Position numbers and translations under genes: made by a program. A DNA stretch of 64,000 nt, taken from NCBI GenBank assembly GCA_030272585.1, contig BSYQ01000004.1, positions 5,332,001-5,396,000 on the forward strand, written 5' to 3'. This document shows, in pieces, positions 1-26,033 of this stretch (the stretch's first letter is position 1; each line of letters begins with the position of its first letter). The notes beneath the pieces are model-generated. The model made no database searches and was not told the DNA's origin. It was given only the letters and a program-made list of their open reading frames with translations. The stretch comes from Bryopsis sp. KO-2023 (Eukaryota; Chlorophyta; Ulvophyceae; Bryopsidales; Bryopsidaceae).

Positions 1-3000
1 TCCATCCCGTGTGCGCACCCACAAGAGCTAGCTTGCTTACGGGGAGGGATTTCTTGCGAACAGGAGTGTGGGGTGTTCATGGCGGCCGAGATTTCATAAA
101 CTTGGATGAAGAAACGTTCGGGGATGCACTCGGGGGGCACTATGGGAAATCGCGGTCTGTGCGGGGTGTTTTGCAGACCCCGCACAGAACCTTGACCACC
201 CATGCACAGGGCAAACAACACCCCGCACGGCTCTGTGCCCCGGTTTGGCCCCGTTTTTTGCGGGGTCCCGAATTAACCCCGCACAGACTGGTACCCCGCA
301 CACAGAACCTGACGTCTTTCCCGTTGTGGGACCCCGTACAGATGAAACATAGCCCCGTACAGTGTGCGGGGCAGCCTATTCTCTGTACGGGGGTGCCGTG
401 CGGGGTGGATATGAAAGACGTCAGGTTCTGTGTGCGGGGTACCAGTCTGTGCGGGGTTAATTCGGGACCCCGCAAAAAACGGGGCCAAACCGGGGCACAG
501 AGCCGTGCGGGGTGTTGTTTGCCCTGTGCATGGGTGGTCAAGGTTCTGTGCGAATCATGGACCACCCCGCACAAGGGGGCCAGGACCTCGCACAGTTGTG
601 CGGGGTCTCTGTGCGGGGTGAGTGTAAATAGCGTGTGCGGGCCCCTTCGATGTGTGTGCGGGGTGATTGTAAAAGGTTTGTGCCGGTGTTTTTGGGTCCT
701 GTGCGGGGTGAGGGAAAATAGCGTGTGCGGGCTCCTTTGATGTGTGTGCGGGGTGATTGTAGAAACACATGTGTGCAGGTTGAAGTCGACAATGTGGTGT
801 TACAATGAAACAATAATGACAAACCCCCTTTGAATTGTAGACCTCATTTTATGATCGAAGACTTCCCATTCCCACTTATTCCAAAAAAGAAATAGAAACC
901 AAAAAAATAGCCCAAAACCATGAACTCTGATCCTGCCATTCCGACCTTGTCTTTCAGTAATATAGAGCTCGTTGAACATAGAAATACTCAGCATCTGACC
1001 CACTTCCAACCGTCTTTCAATGTTTTTTTGAGCAAAGCAGAATAAGGCACATGAGGTGCAATTGTTCAAATGTTCATAATAACTGCAACATATGTTGTCA
1101 CATGCATATGAATCCGGGTTCACTGAGGTTGCGAAAGTCTTAATAAAGTCTGTTTCCTGAATCAAAACCAAATACAAAAAACGTTTTTTAAGAAAACAAT
1201 GTGCACGTCCGATACCAGAAACAAAACAAGCATGTTGCACCATAGTCGAAAAAAGGGGGGGCGGAAATCACCCTATCCAGCTGCCCTTTGCAATTGTTGT
1301 TACCTTTTTTTCATGGGGTGGGCAGGCTGCCCATTCTAACACACCTCCATCTTCCTTTCTCTGCTGGGATTAGTCTTTTTGATCCTCCGACCGAGCGGGC
1401 TGGCATTCTCGAATAATCTTCACTGTACCTCATCTTTACGGACAAAAGAATACATCCCCCCTCCCATAGACCCATGAGCTGATTAGCCCAGCCATCGAAT
1501 CCCTCACTGCCTGGCAGACAAAACCAGTTGTCAACCCCCCCCCCCAACCCAAAGGAAAGGCCTGCCCAATCAACAAGAACTAGGATCTGGTGTGTACTGT
1601 ATCATGCGAATTTTGTACATTTCCTGCGTCCAAGGGTTGGAATAAATCAATTATTTCAAGATAACTAAAAGCGACCTCAACATTTTTTCTTTTCTGCCTA
1701 TTTCCATTACTGCAAAAAAGGTTCCTGCTACATGAAATGCATCTTGCTGATGCACCCACAGCATAAATCCCTGTAACACATCAGGGCATTTTTTTTTGTT
1801 TTTCAACACACTTGATATTGTTTCCGGGACTGTCCATGTCGGCCCCATGGCAGAGATGTTGCTCATTCAATTTCCCACCTCCGACTTCCTCCTGAATATC
1901 GTTTCTCCACAGATTATACCTGGTCCACAATTTGGTGTTTTGCACTGGAAAAATCTCTGTCGTCCTCCTTCCTAAGCCTGCGAGAAAAATTACCAAAAAT
2001 TCATGATGCACAAAGAATAGATATTCCTAGCCATCTCCCCAAGGTCGAAACTCCATTCGAACCGATTGATTAAACCTCAGTGCACAACTCACCGCCACGA
2101 ACGGCATGATAAACTGAACAGAACCCGTTTCGCTCCAAACAGATATTCAATCTTCGCATGTCCTAGTTCAATCCATCGCCACCATCTGCATCGATTTCTT
2201 CATAAATTTCGGTGCCACAGTCACTTCCATCGTCGCTGGAGCTGGATGGCTGGGTGTATCTAGGGACATGCTGCTTGTGTCTGACTGCGTTCACCCCGAA
2301 CGGGCGACTAAATTGTGACTGAATCGAGGCCTTCGATAAATCTTTCCAAAAAAGTAAACAAAACAGTTCACGATACAGGATTTCAGATCCGACCATTATG
2401 TACCATTGGGTCCTCAAACCACCATTGTTTCGAAGGTTACTCTTTTGGGGGAAGGGGGAAATTGCCGGGTATCACGAGTGTGTGCATGGATACACTGGGG
2501 GTTCGTTTTGTTTTCTTTCAAACACCGATGCCTAGATTTGTTTGGTCGAAAGATTTGGGATGGAATACCTTCTAGAACCTTCACTTCACTAAAAAGACTA
2601 AGAAAAAAATCTGAGCCCCTGGCATCACTCCCACCTCTTTTCCTCGTTCTTCTTGTTTTATGAAGGAACTTCATAAGACAAATATGTTTTCCAGCCTCCG
2701 TTGAGACAGCTCCAGCAAGTACCTGGGCATCGGCCACAACCCCAGGCGTCAAAACGCTCCGAGATTCCAGGGGGTGTGCAGCCATGTTTTGAGAAGGTGC
2801 AACCTGTGAAGACTAATCAAACCAGAGTTGCTGAGAACTTATCAGTGACTTCATAAACAGCGAACAAAGTACAGCACACTAAATCAGCAGGATCAAACAA
2901 CCCAAGTTACTCTGCTTTCCCCGTTTCCCCCGACCAACGCTCCAGTCACTGCTTGGCCCCGATGTTTCTGTGCAAGTGCAACATGAAATCGACCTGCATG

Positions 3001-6000
3001 TAAAATTGAAACAAGAAAAGTTTTCCTGAAGTGCTGGTTCTTGATTTACCACCTCATTTACCTGCGACCCTTGCTGGTAAATGGCTGCACAGATTCCCAA
3101 GGGTTTAAAATAATAAAAAAAAGTTACGTGAAAAAGGTTATGACTGCATGCCCCAGGAATTCACGTTTGAAATTGGTGTGTCAGAAACCACCTTTTATTT
3201 TTTGTTCTGTGGCTGATTTTTTTCATTTCTGAGAGATATCTGTTAATACATTTCAAAAGGTTCACACAATGCAAAAAAAATCCAGTGCAGTCCTACCCAC
3301 TCCGGCCGGCCTTGCGTTGGTGAGGGCAGCGTTCCTGGTGGTGTTGCGATAATGGCAGCAGCTTCTTCAGGAGGTTCGATTTCATCTGTGATTGCAACGA
3401 GCACCACCCAGTCCGGCTCCGAGCCCTCTTCCTCTTAAAGTTTGGGATTGTCTTCTTCTTCTGAAGGGGATTCTGTCAATGGTGGCGATTGCCTGGATGT
3501 TGCCTTCTTTGTTGAGGGTTTATTTTTTCCCTTCCTTGGCTTCCTGGTTCCGGGAGTAACTTGCAGCAAAGCGCGTTCAGATAAGCTGCACAGGTCAGAA
3601 TTTGAAGCGCAAAGAGCCCTCTGGAATTCTCCAGCCCCTGGAAACATAACCAAGAAAAGCTGGGGGGGTTCTCTGTGGAGTCATGGGAAGCCATCCATTT
3701 CTGAAGTCAATCCTTTGATTCGTTGTCCATCCATCAATCCAGCGAATTGATTTTACCTTTGCAAGAATCTATTTGGACAGCAAATCAACATGATTGGAGA
3801 AAGCAAGAATTCGATGGATCAGCATCCTGTTCTGGTTTTTTTTTTTCACTTTTTCAAGAAAGTATACAATGCACAGGTTCGAACGTCAAACACAGACTTG
3901 TTTTATTTTCCTTTCCCTTTTTCTTTTTCTTTTTTTTTTTGGGGGGGGGGGATCGAAACAAAGCATCCCCACTGTTCCACTGTGATTCCAACCCCTTTCT
4001 TGGATGCTTGTTGAACAAGCTCCAAAATCTGGTAGGAGCCATAAAGAAAGGGTTTTTCAGAAAGGTCCATTGAGAGAAGCAACCAAAACAATGGTGGGCT
4101 GTGCTCACCTGTATTTTCTCATCTGATGAGAACATATGTCGGACTTGGCTTGCATTCGATATGCTGTTGATGTCCTCCATGAAAGCGTCATCCCTGACTT
4201 GTGTTTTTGAGAACAAGAACACTGTGGATTGCATATCTCTGTCAGCTTTCTTCAAGATACTTTTCGAGTCTTCCTCCCATTCTGATTTTCTGTAGCTCTT
4301 TGCTACATCCGCCTGCAAGATAGGAGCTAGGATTTCCAACCTTCAACAAGCAGGGGCAGAATCAACAAGATTGCAACAAGATTGCAAGCAGGTGACACGG
4401 AAATGCGTTATAGGCTGGCTCAGAAATTCAACTAACATTCATAAGGTGGCAATATCTTGAAGCCTCCTTTTTGTCCAATTTTTGCTAAAGTTAAAAAAAA
4501 AAAAAAAAAAAAATGGGGCGTGGTCCTTCAGCAAGGTAAAGTGCCGATGTAAAATACACGCAGGACACAGCAGTTGAAAAAAAAAACCCTTTGGCTCCCC
4601 TTGAACTGGTGGGAAAACCCAGGGGAGCTGCGTTGCGCGACGCGTCGCTCGTGTAAGAATCTCGCGGCGCTGCTCGAAGCAGGGCCCGAGGCCGTGCTTG
4701 GAGATGCGTCGAAAGCGTGGCTCACTGGAGGATTGCCGAGTACGCAGACGTCGTCCCTGACCCCTTTTCACCAACCGACCTCCAAAGATCTCGTTCCGAC
4801 GCTTGGACCACGCATGGCAGCGATCCTCCGTCGACCGCATGGCTCTCAGCCTATGGGAGGTCCGCCAGGTACTCGCGAGGGACTCGCTGCCTCCCCTGAC
4901 CATTTTCGTTCGACTCCAGCACACGATAGAGATCTGCGAACTGGCATTCCAAACGAGTGTGACAGATCACACCTCCCCCGCATTTCGCGATTCGATGACG
5001 TCAACCCTACCCCGCACAGGACAGTAACCTCGCACACGACTCTTTGCGGGGTTACTGTCCTGTGCGGGGTTGACTGTGCGGGGTTGATTTCCGCGGTTTC
5101 ATCCACCGCTGACGACTTCGCCAGCGACTCCGTTTTTCCGCCCCAGATCGTGACGGGAATGCCTGGGAGTCGAACCCAGATGTTTCCTACCATTCCCTCT
5201 CTCTGTCGCGTCGGTTTTCGCGACTTCAGTTTTTGGCGGAAATCGACGGTGATTTTACTACCCCGCACAGAGCGGGTTTTCCCATAGTGGGGCATGGATA
5301 CTCGACGGGCCTCTTCGGCAAATGGTGGGTGGTGTCGACATCTGTGGAGCAAATGGTTCGTCGCGCGTCTATCTTCCAGATATTTTCTTTCGACTGTTCA
5401 GAAGCGTTTGTGATATCCGCATTAAAAAATATGGCTGTGTGGACTGAATTCGAACGAGTTCTTAAATTCTTGGAAGGACGAACATAGCCGTGGTTTTCCT
5501 GCAGGCACAATGGCAGAACGGACGGCTACTTACCATATGATCGCGGATTCGATGAAGTCTACACGACGGATTTGTACTACTACAAAAACAACCGCGCAAG
5601 CCACAATGGGGTCCCTATCCAAACAACGGGATGGGCAACCGAAAATATCGCGAACTGGACGATTAATTTTATGAGCGAGAACAGGGACCGTCCTTTCCTG
5701 GCCTACATACCATTCATGGCGCCTCACCTGGGAAAGGAATACGGTGCCCAGAGTGAAAACTGGCACGCCCCTGATGCTTTTGTGTTAAAGTACCAAAGAA
5801 AAGGACTCGATGCGGCGCTGTCCAGGCTCTATGGGATGATTGATTTCATGGATTTTCAGGTAAATATTTTGCGAACTCAGGCGTGCCCAGCTCACCCCCT
5901 TCGTCTCAATGGTAACTGTCTTAACCCAGCGCACCGCAATCACGAAATGATCATACCTCGTTGTCTGCGTGGCAGGTTGGCAGGATGCTGGCGGCCGTGG

Positions 6001-7070
6001 ATCGACTGGGGCTGGGTGAGAATACGGTCGTTGCTTTCTTTTCCGACAACGGCCCGATAGATGGGGGCCGGCTCAGCACGATCGAGCGGGATGGACGCAA
6101 CCTCTACAACCTGAACGGAAACAAAGGGGAGATATTCGATAACGGTATCCGAGTTCCGCTTTTTGTGCGGTGGCAAGGGCACTTCCCGCCGTCTGTCGTC
6201 GAGGATGCCCTCGTTTCGATCACAGACATATTTCCAACTATGATGGATCTATCTGGTGCAAGGAATCGAACATATGGCAAGCCAATAGATGGGTGGAGCC
6301 TATCCAAACTTCTGTACAACCCCAAAGTCGTCAGCGAATCCTGGAAGCAGCGAGTTCTGTTCCACACATCCGGGGCCCCCGAATGGACAAGGCGTGGTGG
6401 AGTATACGTGCCTTTGCCTGATTTGGGGAGGAACAAAGCCGATCTCGTGCTCGGTCGCGATGGCCGATGGGCAGTGAGGGAGGGGCGGTACAAGCTGGTC
6501 CACTTTTTTGGAAGAGAAGAAGTTTTCGACATGATTCAGGACCCCCAAGAGTCGTCGCCTTTGGACAACCCAATCCTGCATCAACACCTGAGAAACAAAC
6601 TGGGGGAATGGTGGCTGAAGATGTTGGTGGACCCTGGCTCTTTCACAACGCCAGTCTTCCATATCGGATGGCCTGGACGCTCCACGAGCAAAGTACTAGC
6701 TATGGCGGCGGTCCAGACCTCGCCGCGTGTGTTCCTACACTCACATGACGCGTCTGGTTGGGTTGAGGAGGGTACTTTTGCTGTATACCAGGTCAATATA
6801 TTGACAACGGGCAGCTACATTGTGAGAGTGAGGGTGCAATCCACGCACCCGATCGGCGGCGTTGTCAGGGTATCATGTGACGATGGCAGGAAATCCAGTG
6901 TGGCTGGATGGATAATGGCCAATGGGTACCTCGGGGTCATATCGTTGCAGAGAGGAGGTGGGCAGTGCTACATGGAGTTCAAAATTGCAACCAGCACTGG
7001 GGGTGCAGGATTGTATGGAGGTCGAGCAAGAATGGAATCTATCGATTTCGATCTTTTGCAGGAGAATTAG
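1..7070 (+). CDS. Arylsulfatase-type sulfatase (5' end outside window; frame interrupted by a transposon)
   Basis: Hydrolyses sulfate esters, probably in the secretory path or outside the cell; substrate unknown. Visible coding blocks: 1-137, 5290-5324, 5505-5859 and 5976-7070 (about 538 residues, stop TAG). Introns 5325-5504 and 5860-5975 are ordinary GT-AG. The first block carries the sulfatase signature VCAPTRASLLTGR; its Cys (codon 12-14) is the residue converted to formylglycine. Later come LFGKWHNG (split by the intron at 5325), AYIPFMAPH, the metal-site stretch FSDNG and the C-terminal VREGRYKLVHFF. The last ~120 residues look like a beta-rich carbohydrate-binding-type appendix. Between codons ending at 137 and starting at 5293 the frame holds a 5152-bp insertion. 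Removing it with one GGG gives the family-typical spacing ETFGDALGGHGYSTGLFGKW. Whether this allele is still expressed is unknown. Confidence 0.88.
181..552. repeat. Perfect 140-bp inverted repeat near the left end of the CACTA element
   Basis: Bases 181-320 and 413-552 are exact reverse complements over 140 bp by hand reading, separated by a 92-bp spacer (321-412) that itself contains smaller GTACGGGG/CCCCGTAC palindromes. Each arm contains several GTGCGGGG units. As RNA this would fold into a very long hairpin; as DNA it could form a cruciform. Perfect arm identity argues for recent origin or ongoing gene conversion. Confidence 0.9.
611..770 (+). repeat. Tandem repeat, about 90-bp period, subterminal in the CACTA element
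   Basis: A unit starting GTGCGGGGTGAG at 611 recurs at 701 with a few substitutions (second copy partial, to about 770). Each unit contains three GTGCGGG motifs. Together with the inverted repeat at 181-552 it forms the left subterminal block. Confidence 0.8.
2163..2803 (-). other. Two candidate minus-strand exons of unknown gene inside the CACTA element
   Basis: 2723-2803 is open for 27 codons between an acceptor-like CACAG and a donor CAG|GTACTT. 2163-2318 is open for 51 codons after GATTCAG and ends with TAG; it has an acidic Ser/Asp/Glu-rich tail (QPSSSSDDGSDCGTEIYEE). Both are phase 0 and lie downstream, on the minus strand, of the dynein-like exon at 4109-4312, so they could be exons of one captured gene fragment. 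No family is recognised, and intervening exons could not be assembled. They may be chance reading frames. Confidence 0.22.
4109..4312 (-). pseudogene. Dynein heavy chain AAA4-like exon fragment
   Basis: Read on the minus strand, a 68-codon block lies between acceptor TTGCAG and donor CAG|GTGAGC. It contains SYRKSEWEEDSKSIL, TVFLFSKTQ and DDAFMEDINSI, matching the dynein motor stretch usually read as (N/E)WREDLK, TVFL..(D/N)TQI and ESFLEDINN(I/L)L in the fourth AAA module. The usually conserved LNSGEVPNLF part is degraded to SNASQVRHMF, and neither the preceding Walker A region nor the following stalk-side exons are found nearby. A real dynein heavy chain spans about 4500 residues, so this is a stray exon, most simply captured by the transposon. 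It could instead be a very divergent nested gene. Confidence 0.55.
4388..4428 (+). repeat. Dispersed ~45-bp repeat, partial copy in the CACTA element
   Basis: ACACGGAAATGCGTTATAGG then CTGGCTCAGAAA shares the 3' half of the family; the CTGACTCAGAAA tail is shared with the copy at 35102. Confidence 0.6.
5007..5090. repeat. Right subterminal inverted repeat of the CACTA element
   Basis: ACCCCGCACAGGACAGTAACC at about 5010 is the reverse complement of GGTTACTGTCCTGTGCGGGGT at about 5050, with a short loop holding CGCACACGACTCTTTGCG. Two further TGTGCGGGGTTGA units follow. These mirror the GTGCGGGG units at the left end and support the mobile-element call. Confidence 0.8.
5155..5197 (-). other. 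tRNA acceptor/T-arm minihelix-like structure
   Basis: On the minus strand GGGAATG pairs with CATTCCC over 7 bp, enclosing an 11-nt linker and a perfect T-arm (CTGGG, loop TTCGACT, CCCAG). The B-box GGTTCGACTCC is intact. D and anticodon arms are missing, so it is not a functional tRNA. It lies inside the CACTA element, near its right end. It may be a truncated tRNA relic or a Pol III B-box. Confidence 0.45.
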
Positions 7071-12490: not shown

Positions 12491-14619
12491 GGAAAAAAAA
12501 AGAAAAATTACGAATTTTCTGGTGAATTCCTGAAGGGATGAACAAGATTTTCTCCCTCAGGGGATGAAAAAAACACAAAAAAAAACAAGTAGCCCTAAGA
12601 AGAAAAGAAAAATGAGAGAGAGAGAGAGAGAAAAAAAAAAGTGGGCTGGGGATTGTTGGGTTTTATATTAGTGTTTAAGGATCGCAGTTGTTTCGCCTAG
12701 AGGATGAACAAGATGATATTATTACCAAAAGGGTTCGAACAGGCACACATGCATGAGGTGCCCTCATTCCTTTTTTTTTTTTTTTTTTTTTTTGAAGTTC
12801 TGATAAATTGAATCGAGTACTACTAGTGATATAATCCATTCAGCCATTTTCCTATCGTACAGGGAGATGGAAAAAAGTTTATAACGGAAAAAAAAAATAG
12901 TGTGGCTTTTGGGGGCAAGTTGCATTTTGAGAGTAAAATGTTTTTTTTTTTGTTTTTTTTTTCTTCCTGAATTTTCTTTTTTTTTTCTTTCCCTTTTTTT
13001 TTTCTTTTTTTTTGTTTTACACTTTTTTTTTTTAATTTCCTTTTTTTCTTTTGAGATGCTGGCTTTTTTTTATTTCTTTTCTTTTATTTCGTTTTTTTTT
13101 TTTTATATATAATATGAAAGTTAGTAGCAACCCTCCTTTTTCAGCAAGAACTTTGGGATGCTTTGAAAGGATCACAGTGTTGGGGTCAAGTGTTTGAGGA
13201 ACCGATTCATTTACCGGGGGAAAGGGGTTGACTTTGACAGAAAAAAAACCAAAAAAAAAACAATTATTTGTACAGAGGCAGAGAAGAAATCAGCAAAGAA
13301 AAGAAAAGCCTTTATATAGCAGTTGGTTGGGTTAGAATGTTGTATAGAGACTTTCAAAAATGATAAAAGGGGAAAAAAGAGAGAAAACAAAAGACCGAGA
13401 AAAGGAAAAAAAAAAGAACAATGGAGGAGGCGGTCAACGATGGAGGTTGAAGCCGGTGTCGGAGGGATTTTATTTGTTCAAGTAGAAATCGTGTCAACAT
13501 TTTTAGGTATGGATTTCTTTGTTTTTTTTATTTTCTTTTTTATTTTCATTTTCTTTCTTTGTTTTTTTTGTTTACGTTTTTTTTTTTATTTTTAATTACA
13601 CAAGTTTGGAGGCAGGATTGTTGGTGGTGACGCTTTTTTTGGTGTTTGGGGTTGGTGTTTTTGCGGAGTTGAATCGTTCTTGAAAAGGGGAGAAAAAAAA
13701 AACTGAGGTGATTAGTTTTTTTTTCTTTTCTTTTTTCTTTCTCTGTGGGTGTGTGTGTCGGTGTGGGTTTTTTGGCGTCGTCAGAAAACAGGAGGGATCA
13801 AGAACGTAAGTGTAAAATCAGTGCAACGCAAAATCCTGCCTGTGTCCGTATGTCCGTCTCGACCAAGTCGACGTCACATCACGCTCCAAGAAAAGACCTT
13901 TTGCTGCCGTGGAATTGAGGATTGAGACCGATTTGATTTTTTTGATCGCAAAATTCAGAATTCACACGATTTCACTGACAACACCACCACAAAAAAAAGG
14001 GGAAAAAAAAATGCACGAGGCATCGCAGATTTGATTGTCTACAGATTTACAGGCCGTGTTCCCATATACACCACATGTCCTCGCATGGTTGTTCCGGTCA
14101 ATATTCCGTCAGCGGTTCGTACGATCTGCCCTGCCAACTTACACCTCTCTTACAAACCCAGCTGCGGAAAACCATCGTTCTCGATTTATCAACCCCCCAA
14201 AACCCGACACCATCGGCAAAAAAAGTAGTCCCAATCTGCCCAGCTCCCTGTCCCCCTCCCCCTTCCTCCCCCCCCCTCCCAACACATCCAAACAACGGAA
14301 AATTTTGTGCTATTTCTTAGTTTCTGGCAATCGACGCTGCGAGACCAGAGGGGACGTGGGAGGACCGACTCCGCCCCGGAAGTCGCTCCACCCAACCCTA
14401 AATATATCTAATCCTTTTGCATATGCTCCCAACCCCTCCCCATCCACCTAACAGTGCCGCACCCAAACAGGACACTGCTTTCTTTTCTTCAAGCCCACTT
14501 TTTTTTTTTTTTGGTTGGTCCCCCCCCCAAAAAAACAAATGCCCCAAAAGCTAAGAAGGGAAAAAAAAGAAAATAACAGAAGAAAAAAGAGTCATTTCTT
14601 TTCCACCCCCGGAACTTAT
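12491..14619. other. Convergent spacer, homopolymer-rich, no gene seen
   Basis: The stretch between the CCCH gene and histone H1 stop codons is dominated by poly-T tracts (12770-13110, 13510-13600), GA repeats (about 12613) and poly-A. Open frames here encode Phe-rich low-complexity strings and are not credible. Confidence 0.6.
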
Positions 14620-25913: not shown

Positions 25914-26033
25914 CACTGTAGAAAAACTGCAGGTATCAACAGGTACTGACCAGGCGTCTCCCAGGTATCTAGTTTTAATACCTGTCCAGGTATTACATAG
26001 GCATAAACTAGATTTTACCCATTTCCCGTAGTG
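25914..26033. repeat. Possible 120-bp CACTA-type MITE with CAGGTAT subterminal motifs
   Basis: Begins CACTGTAGAAAA and ends TTTCCCGTAGTG, an imperfect inverted pair starting with CACT. Inside are five to six CAGGTAT/ATACCTG words in both orientations. No matching 3-bp target duplication was found (TGT versus ATA), so the call is weak. Confidence 0.3.

Follow-up and report, generated by a model that had tools for sequence, protein, structure and literature searches.

A very young CACTA-type transposon carrying a dynein gene fragment probably disrupts a sulfatase gene in the green alga Bryopsis sp. KO-2023

The DNA analysed here is a 64-kb stretch, referred to as the window (G000:C4:5332001-5396000), from the 91-Mb genome of Bryopsis sp. 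KO-2023, a siphonous green alga. It opens inside the first exon of a sulfatase gene, and this exon is split by a non-autonomous transposable element of the CACTA type. Features of the gene and the element are given below in window positions.

1-137, forward strand: sulfatase exon 1, piece before the element; the exon begins 217 bp left of the window and this piece bears CAPTRASLLTGR
135-137, no strand assigned: target-site duplication GGG, left copy, part of a G run
138-5289, forward strand: non-autonomous CACTA-type element, 5,152 bp, assigned from its ends, its copies and the 3-bp duplication
138-167, forward strand: left terminal inverted repeat, 30 bp, 90% complementary to the right end
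158-753, no strand assigned: TGTGCGGGG motifs of the left subterminal array, oriented either way, 13 exact
5010-5269, no strand assigned: right subterminal TGTGCGGGG motifs, 4 exact
5260-5289, reverse strand: right terminal inverted repeat, 30 bp, 90% complementary to the left end
5290-5292, no strand assigned: target-site duplication GGG, right copy
5293-5324, forward strand: sulfatase exon 1, piece after the element
5505-5859, forward strand: sulfatase exon 2, with introns 5325-5504 and 5860-5975 on either side
5976-7070, forward strand: sulfatase exon 3 including the stop codon

When the element and one GGG are removed, the sulfatase reads open for 611 residues with a single stop at the end, counted from an ATG picked by eye 217 bp left of the window. 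The spliced, element-free protein matches PF00884 over residues 30-341 (E 1.3e-52), and exon 1 contains CAPTRASLLTGR, the sulfatase C-x-P-T-R active-site motif. At the junction, between DALGG and HGYSTGLFGKW, the alignment is free of gaps in all seven homologues that reach it, three of them apparently from the window's own contig; the eighth row, the public model BSKO_05368, does not extend as far as the junction. A protein search identified BSKO_05368 as the NCBI model of this same sulfatase. It covers window 5515-7070 (412 aa) and begins at sulfatase residue 200, downstream of the element, and therefore lacks the active-site motif and the catalytic exon. The truncation is presumably due to the splitting of exon 1 by the element. 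The 3' part of the gene was found by DNA search at a single place in the assembly. Additional sulfatase paralogues, four or more in number (BSKO_05120, 05173, 05244, 05610; 45-49% identity), lie apparently on the same contig, C4.

Exon 1, if left unspliced, reads into the element and meets a stop at window 738-740. The product would comprise 118 sulfatase residues and 200 element-encoded ones, and for this reason the allele most likely gives no working enzyme. The insertion thus probably breaks the sulfatase gene.

The ends of the element were compared with the rest of the window. Exact matches to the terminal 12-mer number two, CACTATGGGAAA at 138-149 and TTTCCCATAGTG at 5278-5289; with 2 mismatches allowed, 8 matches are seen against 6.7 expected, which is no rarer than chance. 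One of the window matches, CACTACGGGAAA at 26022-26033, was unremarkable on reading, without any pairing test. All 17 occurrences of TGTGCGGGG and its complement in the window fall within the element, confined to about 615 bp at its left end and about 280 bp at its right end, and 20 of the 21 window occurrences of GTGCGGGG lie within it (1.25 expected in the window). GGG is read at both flanks. The triplet sits within a G run, with six G before the element and four after it, counting the element's last base, so the duplicated triplet is not placeable to the base. CACTA-starting inverted repeats, a 3-bp duplication, clustered subterminal repeats in two orientations and dispersed copies together place the element with CACTA (En/Spm) transposons.

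Related ends are abundant in the genome. The 30-bp end pattern, searched with at most 2 mismatches, gave at least 214 matches (105 forward, 109 reverse), and the reversed control gave 0. At least 57 adjacent, inward-facing end pairs, 3.1-32 kb apart, were formed from at least 158 distinct ends. An exact 3-bp duplication flanks 16 of the 17 elements read at both ends, a set that leaves out one unpaired left end in L021. Between any two of the window copy and its four sisters (one on C8, one on C10 and two on C13) there are 1-5 substitutions in about 5,152 bp, not counting gaps; each sister is 2-4 substitutions from the window element, whose single private substitution is at position 5044. One C13 copy carries about 90 extra bases, and two single-base gaps are also seen. 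The small number of substitutions between the sisters indicates that the window insertion is very young in relative terms. A further copy, on C14, shows 20-22 substitutions and more than 820 gap columns against the five near-identical ones. It contains extra DNA and is possibly a recombinant between copies (C14:598080-604028, L013).

The initial annotation had offered a recent CACTA insertion as one of two readings of the locus, on the grounds of CACTA termini, GGG at both flanks, inverted subterminal arrays and a catalytic-domain length restored by deleting the element with one GGG. All of these are borne out by the data above: the termini by the two exact 12-mers and the complementary 30-bp ends, the arrays by the confinement of TGTGCGGGG in both orientations, the restored gene by the gap-free junction, and the recent insertion by the many copies with their 3-bp duplications and near-identical sisters. 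The at least 214 end matches also exclude the case in which the genome would hold no further copies with these ends.

Frames spanning the insertion sites were read at the 17 sites, and five were scanned with Pfam; an alpha-kinase lies beside one and no domain lies at a junction. We make no claim of exon targeting, as the window site alone is clearly coding. The C8 sister copy (L009, around 1500) appears to lie within, or close to the end of, a frame judged leucine-rich-repeat-like by eye, with no match in Pfam.

The origin of the element could be traced by comparison with a larger relative of 21.9 kb on C6 (C6:669443-691374). The two are collinear at 97.5-99%, and the relative is without a piece of host DNA that the window element contains.

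574-579, no strand assigned: deletion junction relative to the 21.9-kb C6 copy, 16.7 kb absent in the window element, 6-bp overlap
3952-4317, reverse strand: captured host piece, 366 bp, dynein heavy chain motor region D4 (AAA_8), by Pfam match

A second absence relative to the C6 copy amounts to 0.46 kb, with a 12-bp overlap. Nested in the C6 copy itself (L014-L016) is a stretch that by eye resembles a Ty3-type retroelement, with an integrase-like frame. The dynein piece retains what appears by eye to be intron-like sequence. It has eight matches in the genome: six copies of the element, C1:1244187-1244547 (98%) and C13:1399359-1399725, a paralogue at 80%. At the C1 locus the AAA_lid, AAA_8 and MT stalk domains follow one another on the same strand, and this order identifies C1 as the host gene and likely donor. 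The captured piece differs from the C1 donor by 3 substitutions and 5 bp. It directly follows a T/G run, and the parent sequence is short by a few bases at most at this point. A tblastn search for the candidate transposase in the 17 elements gave a match in a 12.9-kb copy alone, and the window element was without a match. With no transposase inside, part of a host coding gene enclosed by its ends and the donor still present in the genome, the window element is a deletion derivative carrying a captured host gene piece, of the Pack-CACTA type.

The protein that mobilises such a derivative is probably encoded by longer relatives. The 12,897-bp copy C4:6555016-6567912, flanked by the duplication ATT, carries the exons of a multi-exon candidate transposase (L032:4900-9450). 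Exon 3 of this candidate has 34 genome matches, 9 of them at 100%, and at least 11 of the 34 lie within end pairs, 10 of those listed being involved. A second subfamily (L048) has ten segments of the protein at 35-59% conservation, and the more distant L049 has most of these as well. A CACTATGGGAGA end is found near L049 and none in the L048 segment examined; of 10 short loci (1.5-7.5 kb) that contain frames of the candidate or the canonical transposase, one, L049, has a CACTANGGG end.

Searches for a known domain in the candidate gave nothing decisive. The joined segments of the first copy (780 aa) gave no Pfam match even at E 10, and a second exon-joined reading gave one chance match at E 9.6. 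Single exons, and likewise six aligned exon-3 proteins, gave Pfam matches below the cut-off alone (best Zn_ribbon_TFIIB, E 0.03 in both cases), and three annotated candidate proteins gave one match, also below the cut-off. Nothing was found in NCBIfam or among the sequences of solved structures. When 5.8 billion proteins were searched with a profile, with scoring limited to the 7,991 candidates of similar length that had most words in common, three proteins came out at E <= 0.001, all from Bryopsis sp. KO-2023. A protein search with exon 3 alone gave no match, full-length relatives of so short a query being excluded from that search. An AlphaFold model of P0121 with P0122 reached a pLDDT of 30 and was unusable. 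The sole match to PF02992 in the genome is at C12:548569-549374 (L036, L037), where a separate, canonical CACTA transposase is encoded with Transposase_21 and DUF4218, with stops inside one stretch.

These negatives raise the question of whether the family belongs to another superfamily that shares CACTA ends and 3-bp duplications by chance. The failure of Pfam and NCBIfam to recognise the candidate would fit such a reading, as would its weak comparison by hhalign with this genome's own Transposase_21 protein, in which six short sequences gave a probability of 15 (E 0.0018) and the longer pair gave probabilities of 0.3 and 2.5. On the other side, the ends, the length of the duplication and the subterminal repeats all fit CACTA. 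The order of motifs seen by eye in the candidate, PGPKEP ... CPDC ... GLVKDFL ... ER, appears to fit as well, resembling that of tnp2 transposases. A different superfamily is considered unlikely. The multi-exon protein of the longer relatives is treated here as a candidate transposase.

The left end of the element contains a long foldback, and a smaller hairpin lies at the right end.

181-320, forward strand: foldback left arm, 140 bp, perfect
413-552, reverse strand: foldback right arm, 140 bp, perfect
5009-5070, no strand assigned: small right-end hairpin, 26-bp arms at 5009-5034 and 5045-5070, 96%

As single-stranded DNA the foldback region folds far better than its shuffles (z = -32.8). 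In other subfamilies a foldback of different sequence occupies the same place; most are perfect over 109-140 bp, but those of L023, L028, C4 and C2:3229427 over no more than 29-60 bp. The arms of the window element were compared over 107-140 columns with those of C2:2066468, L022, L027, C4, C2:3229427 and L028. Joint sites, at which both arms of one element differ together from both arms of the other, numbered 1, 14, 14, 22, 16 and 6 in that order, and sites of other patterns 2, 2, 2, 12, 23 and 18. Side-specific sites, at which each arm matches its counterpart in the other element while the two sides differ from one another, were 0 in all six window comparisons. Some of the 21 pairs were less clean: joint and side-specific sites were 0 and 2 for L022-L027, 0 and 7 for C4-C2:3229427, 6 and 2 for C4-L028, and 3 and 1 for L022 and L027 each against L028. 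Since some pairs show joint sites and others side-specific ones, the arms seem to be homogenised now and then rather than constantly. Template switching is reported in PMC8794818 to create and keep hairpin stems, and gene conversion is an alternative route to matched arms. A transposase lineage that by sequence stands outside the tnp2 CACTA and other described families and also recognises a long single-end hairpin, with gene conversion or template switching in the course of replication or transposition holding its arms identical, is a tentative and rather doubtful combination.

Taken together, the locus is very probably a very recent non-autonomous CACTA-type insertion in sulfatase exon 1, one that carries a dynein capture, is probably mobilised in trans and most likely breaks the gene. 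It derives from a longer element by internal deletion. At some stage a break inside the element may have been repaired with the 366-bp copy of the dynein heavy-chain gene as filler, and the resulting Pack-CACTA would have spread to at least six places after the capture. A very recent cut-and-paste event would have placed it in sulfatase exon 1, duplicating GGG. Longer relatives that share its ends probably supply the mobilising protein in trans, and this protein may bind the TGTGCGGGG repeats, partly arranged as the 140-bp hairpin. Until the element leaves, the allele most likely yields no working sulfatase. Three points weigh against this account. The C14 copy is rearranged and is without a matching duplication, the candidate transposase has no tnp2/Transposase_21 or other Pfam match above the cut-off, and both the loss of function and the mobility are deduced from the sequence of a single strain.

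The gene would escape disruption if the element left the transcript as an intron, wholly or in part, so that the sulfatase still worked. There are 164 in-frame, open GT-AG choices across the element, and CACTA ends sometimes mimic splice sites, according to PMC4219821. The best donor, at 618, scores 4.5 on a crude generic matrix with no random control, between the donors of the two real introns (3.2 and 5.4). This donor leaves at least about 181 extra residues in the catalytic core, however, and for the five choices that add at most 30 residues no donor scores above -1.1. The public model BSKO_05368 also begins downstream of the element. Splicing at some level may occur, but removal that leaves a working enzyme is improbable. 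Should splicing be found, it would not be new in kind, as PMC4219821 describes clean transcript splicing in soybean despite a large CACTA element, there within an intron, as well as splice-site-like CACTA ends. The alternative in the initial annotation, a transposon domesticated as an intron, is not supported, given sisters 2-4 substitutions away in 5,152 bp, weak donors for short additions and a gene model that starts downstream. An old insertion that selection has kept at this place, for which the intact flanking reading frame could be cited, is very improbable in view of the same near-identical sisters at other sites.

The preferred reading, a very recent and probably gene-breaking insertion, involves a known kind of transposon. 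CACTA/En-Spm elements such as maize En/Spm and soybean Tgmt* have CACTA ends, a 3-bp duplication, asymmetric subterminal repeats capable of forming stem-loops, deletion derivatives and members of about 20 kb (PMC2613891). The Bryopsis element shares its ends, duplication, asymmetric repeats, deletion derivatives and ~20-kb members with them. It differs in its green algal host, in a transposase candidate without a tnp2 match and in having one perfect 140-bp foldback at one end in place of many small stem-loops. The plant CACTA domain set comprises Transposase_21, DUF4218 and DUF4216 (PMC8978399); the C12 protein of the same alga has the first two, and the candidate of the window element's family matches neither. 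Like the Pack-CACTA/Pack-TYPE elements of PMC8903248, the window element is non-autonomous and holds a coding-gene fragment between its ends with the donor elsewhere in the genome. Unlike them, it has its fragment in its interior, beside a T/G run, and a longer relative matches it collinearly to the left and right of that fragment. On account of this collinearity and the T/G run, repair of an internal break in our view fits better than the fused-neighbour capture route described for Arabidopsis in PMC13317346. With introners (PMC9860276) it shares a position in a coding exon, but its in-frame splice sites near the ends score poorly on the generic matrix. Titles and abstract openings in the literature listings searched contained no description of this CACTA-ended Bryopsis family. 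The kind of transposon is known; what sets this case apart is its host lineage, a perfect foldback at a single end and a transposase candidate that is still unplaced. New here are the dynein-carrying deletion derivative, the perfect 140-bp left-end hairpin, with arms that tend to differ jointly from one subfamily to the next, and a candidate transposase that Pfam does not recognise.

Elsewhere in the window, at 12500-13750, G+C falls markedly to 0.30-0.37 and the GC skew is positive.

The locus shows how, in an alga built as one giant cell, a sulfatase gene has been split by a transposon of very young age; the public model of this sulfatase is also without the catalytic exon. The gene capture can be followed through a longer relative without the piece, the donor and the element with the piece, within a CACTA-ended family whose candidate transposase goes unrecognised in the databases searched. 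Thanks to the six copies that bear the capture and to the matched arms of the hairpin, two matters become testable: how Pack elements take up host DNA, and how perfect long subterminal hairpins are kept up.

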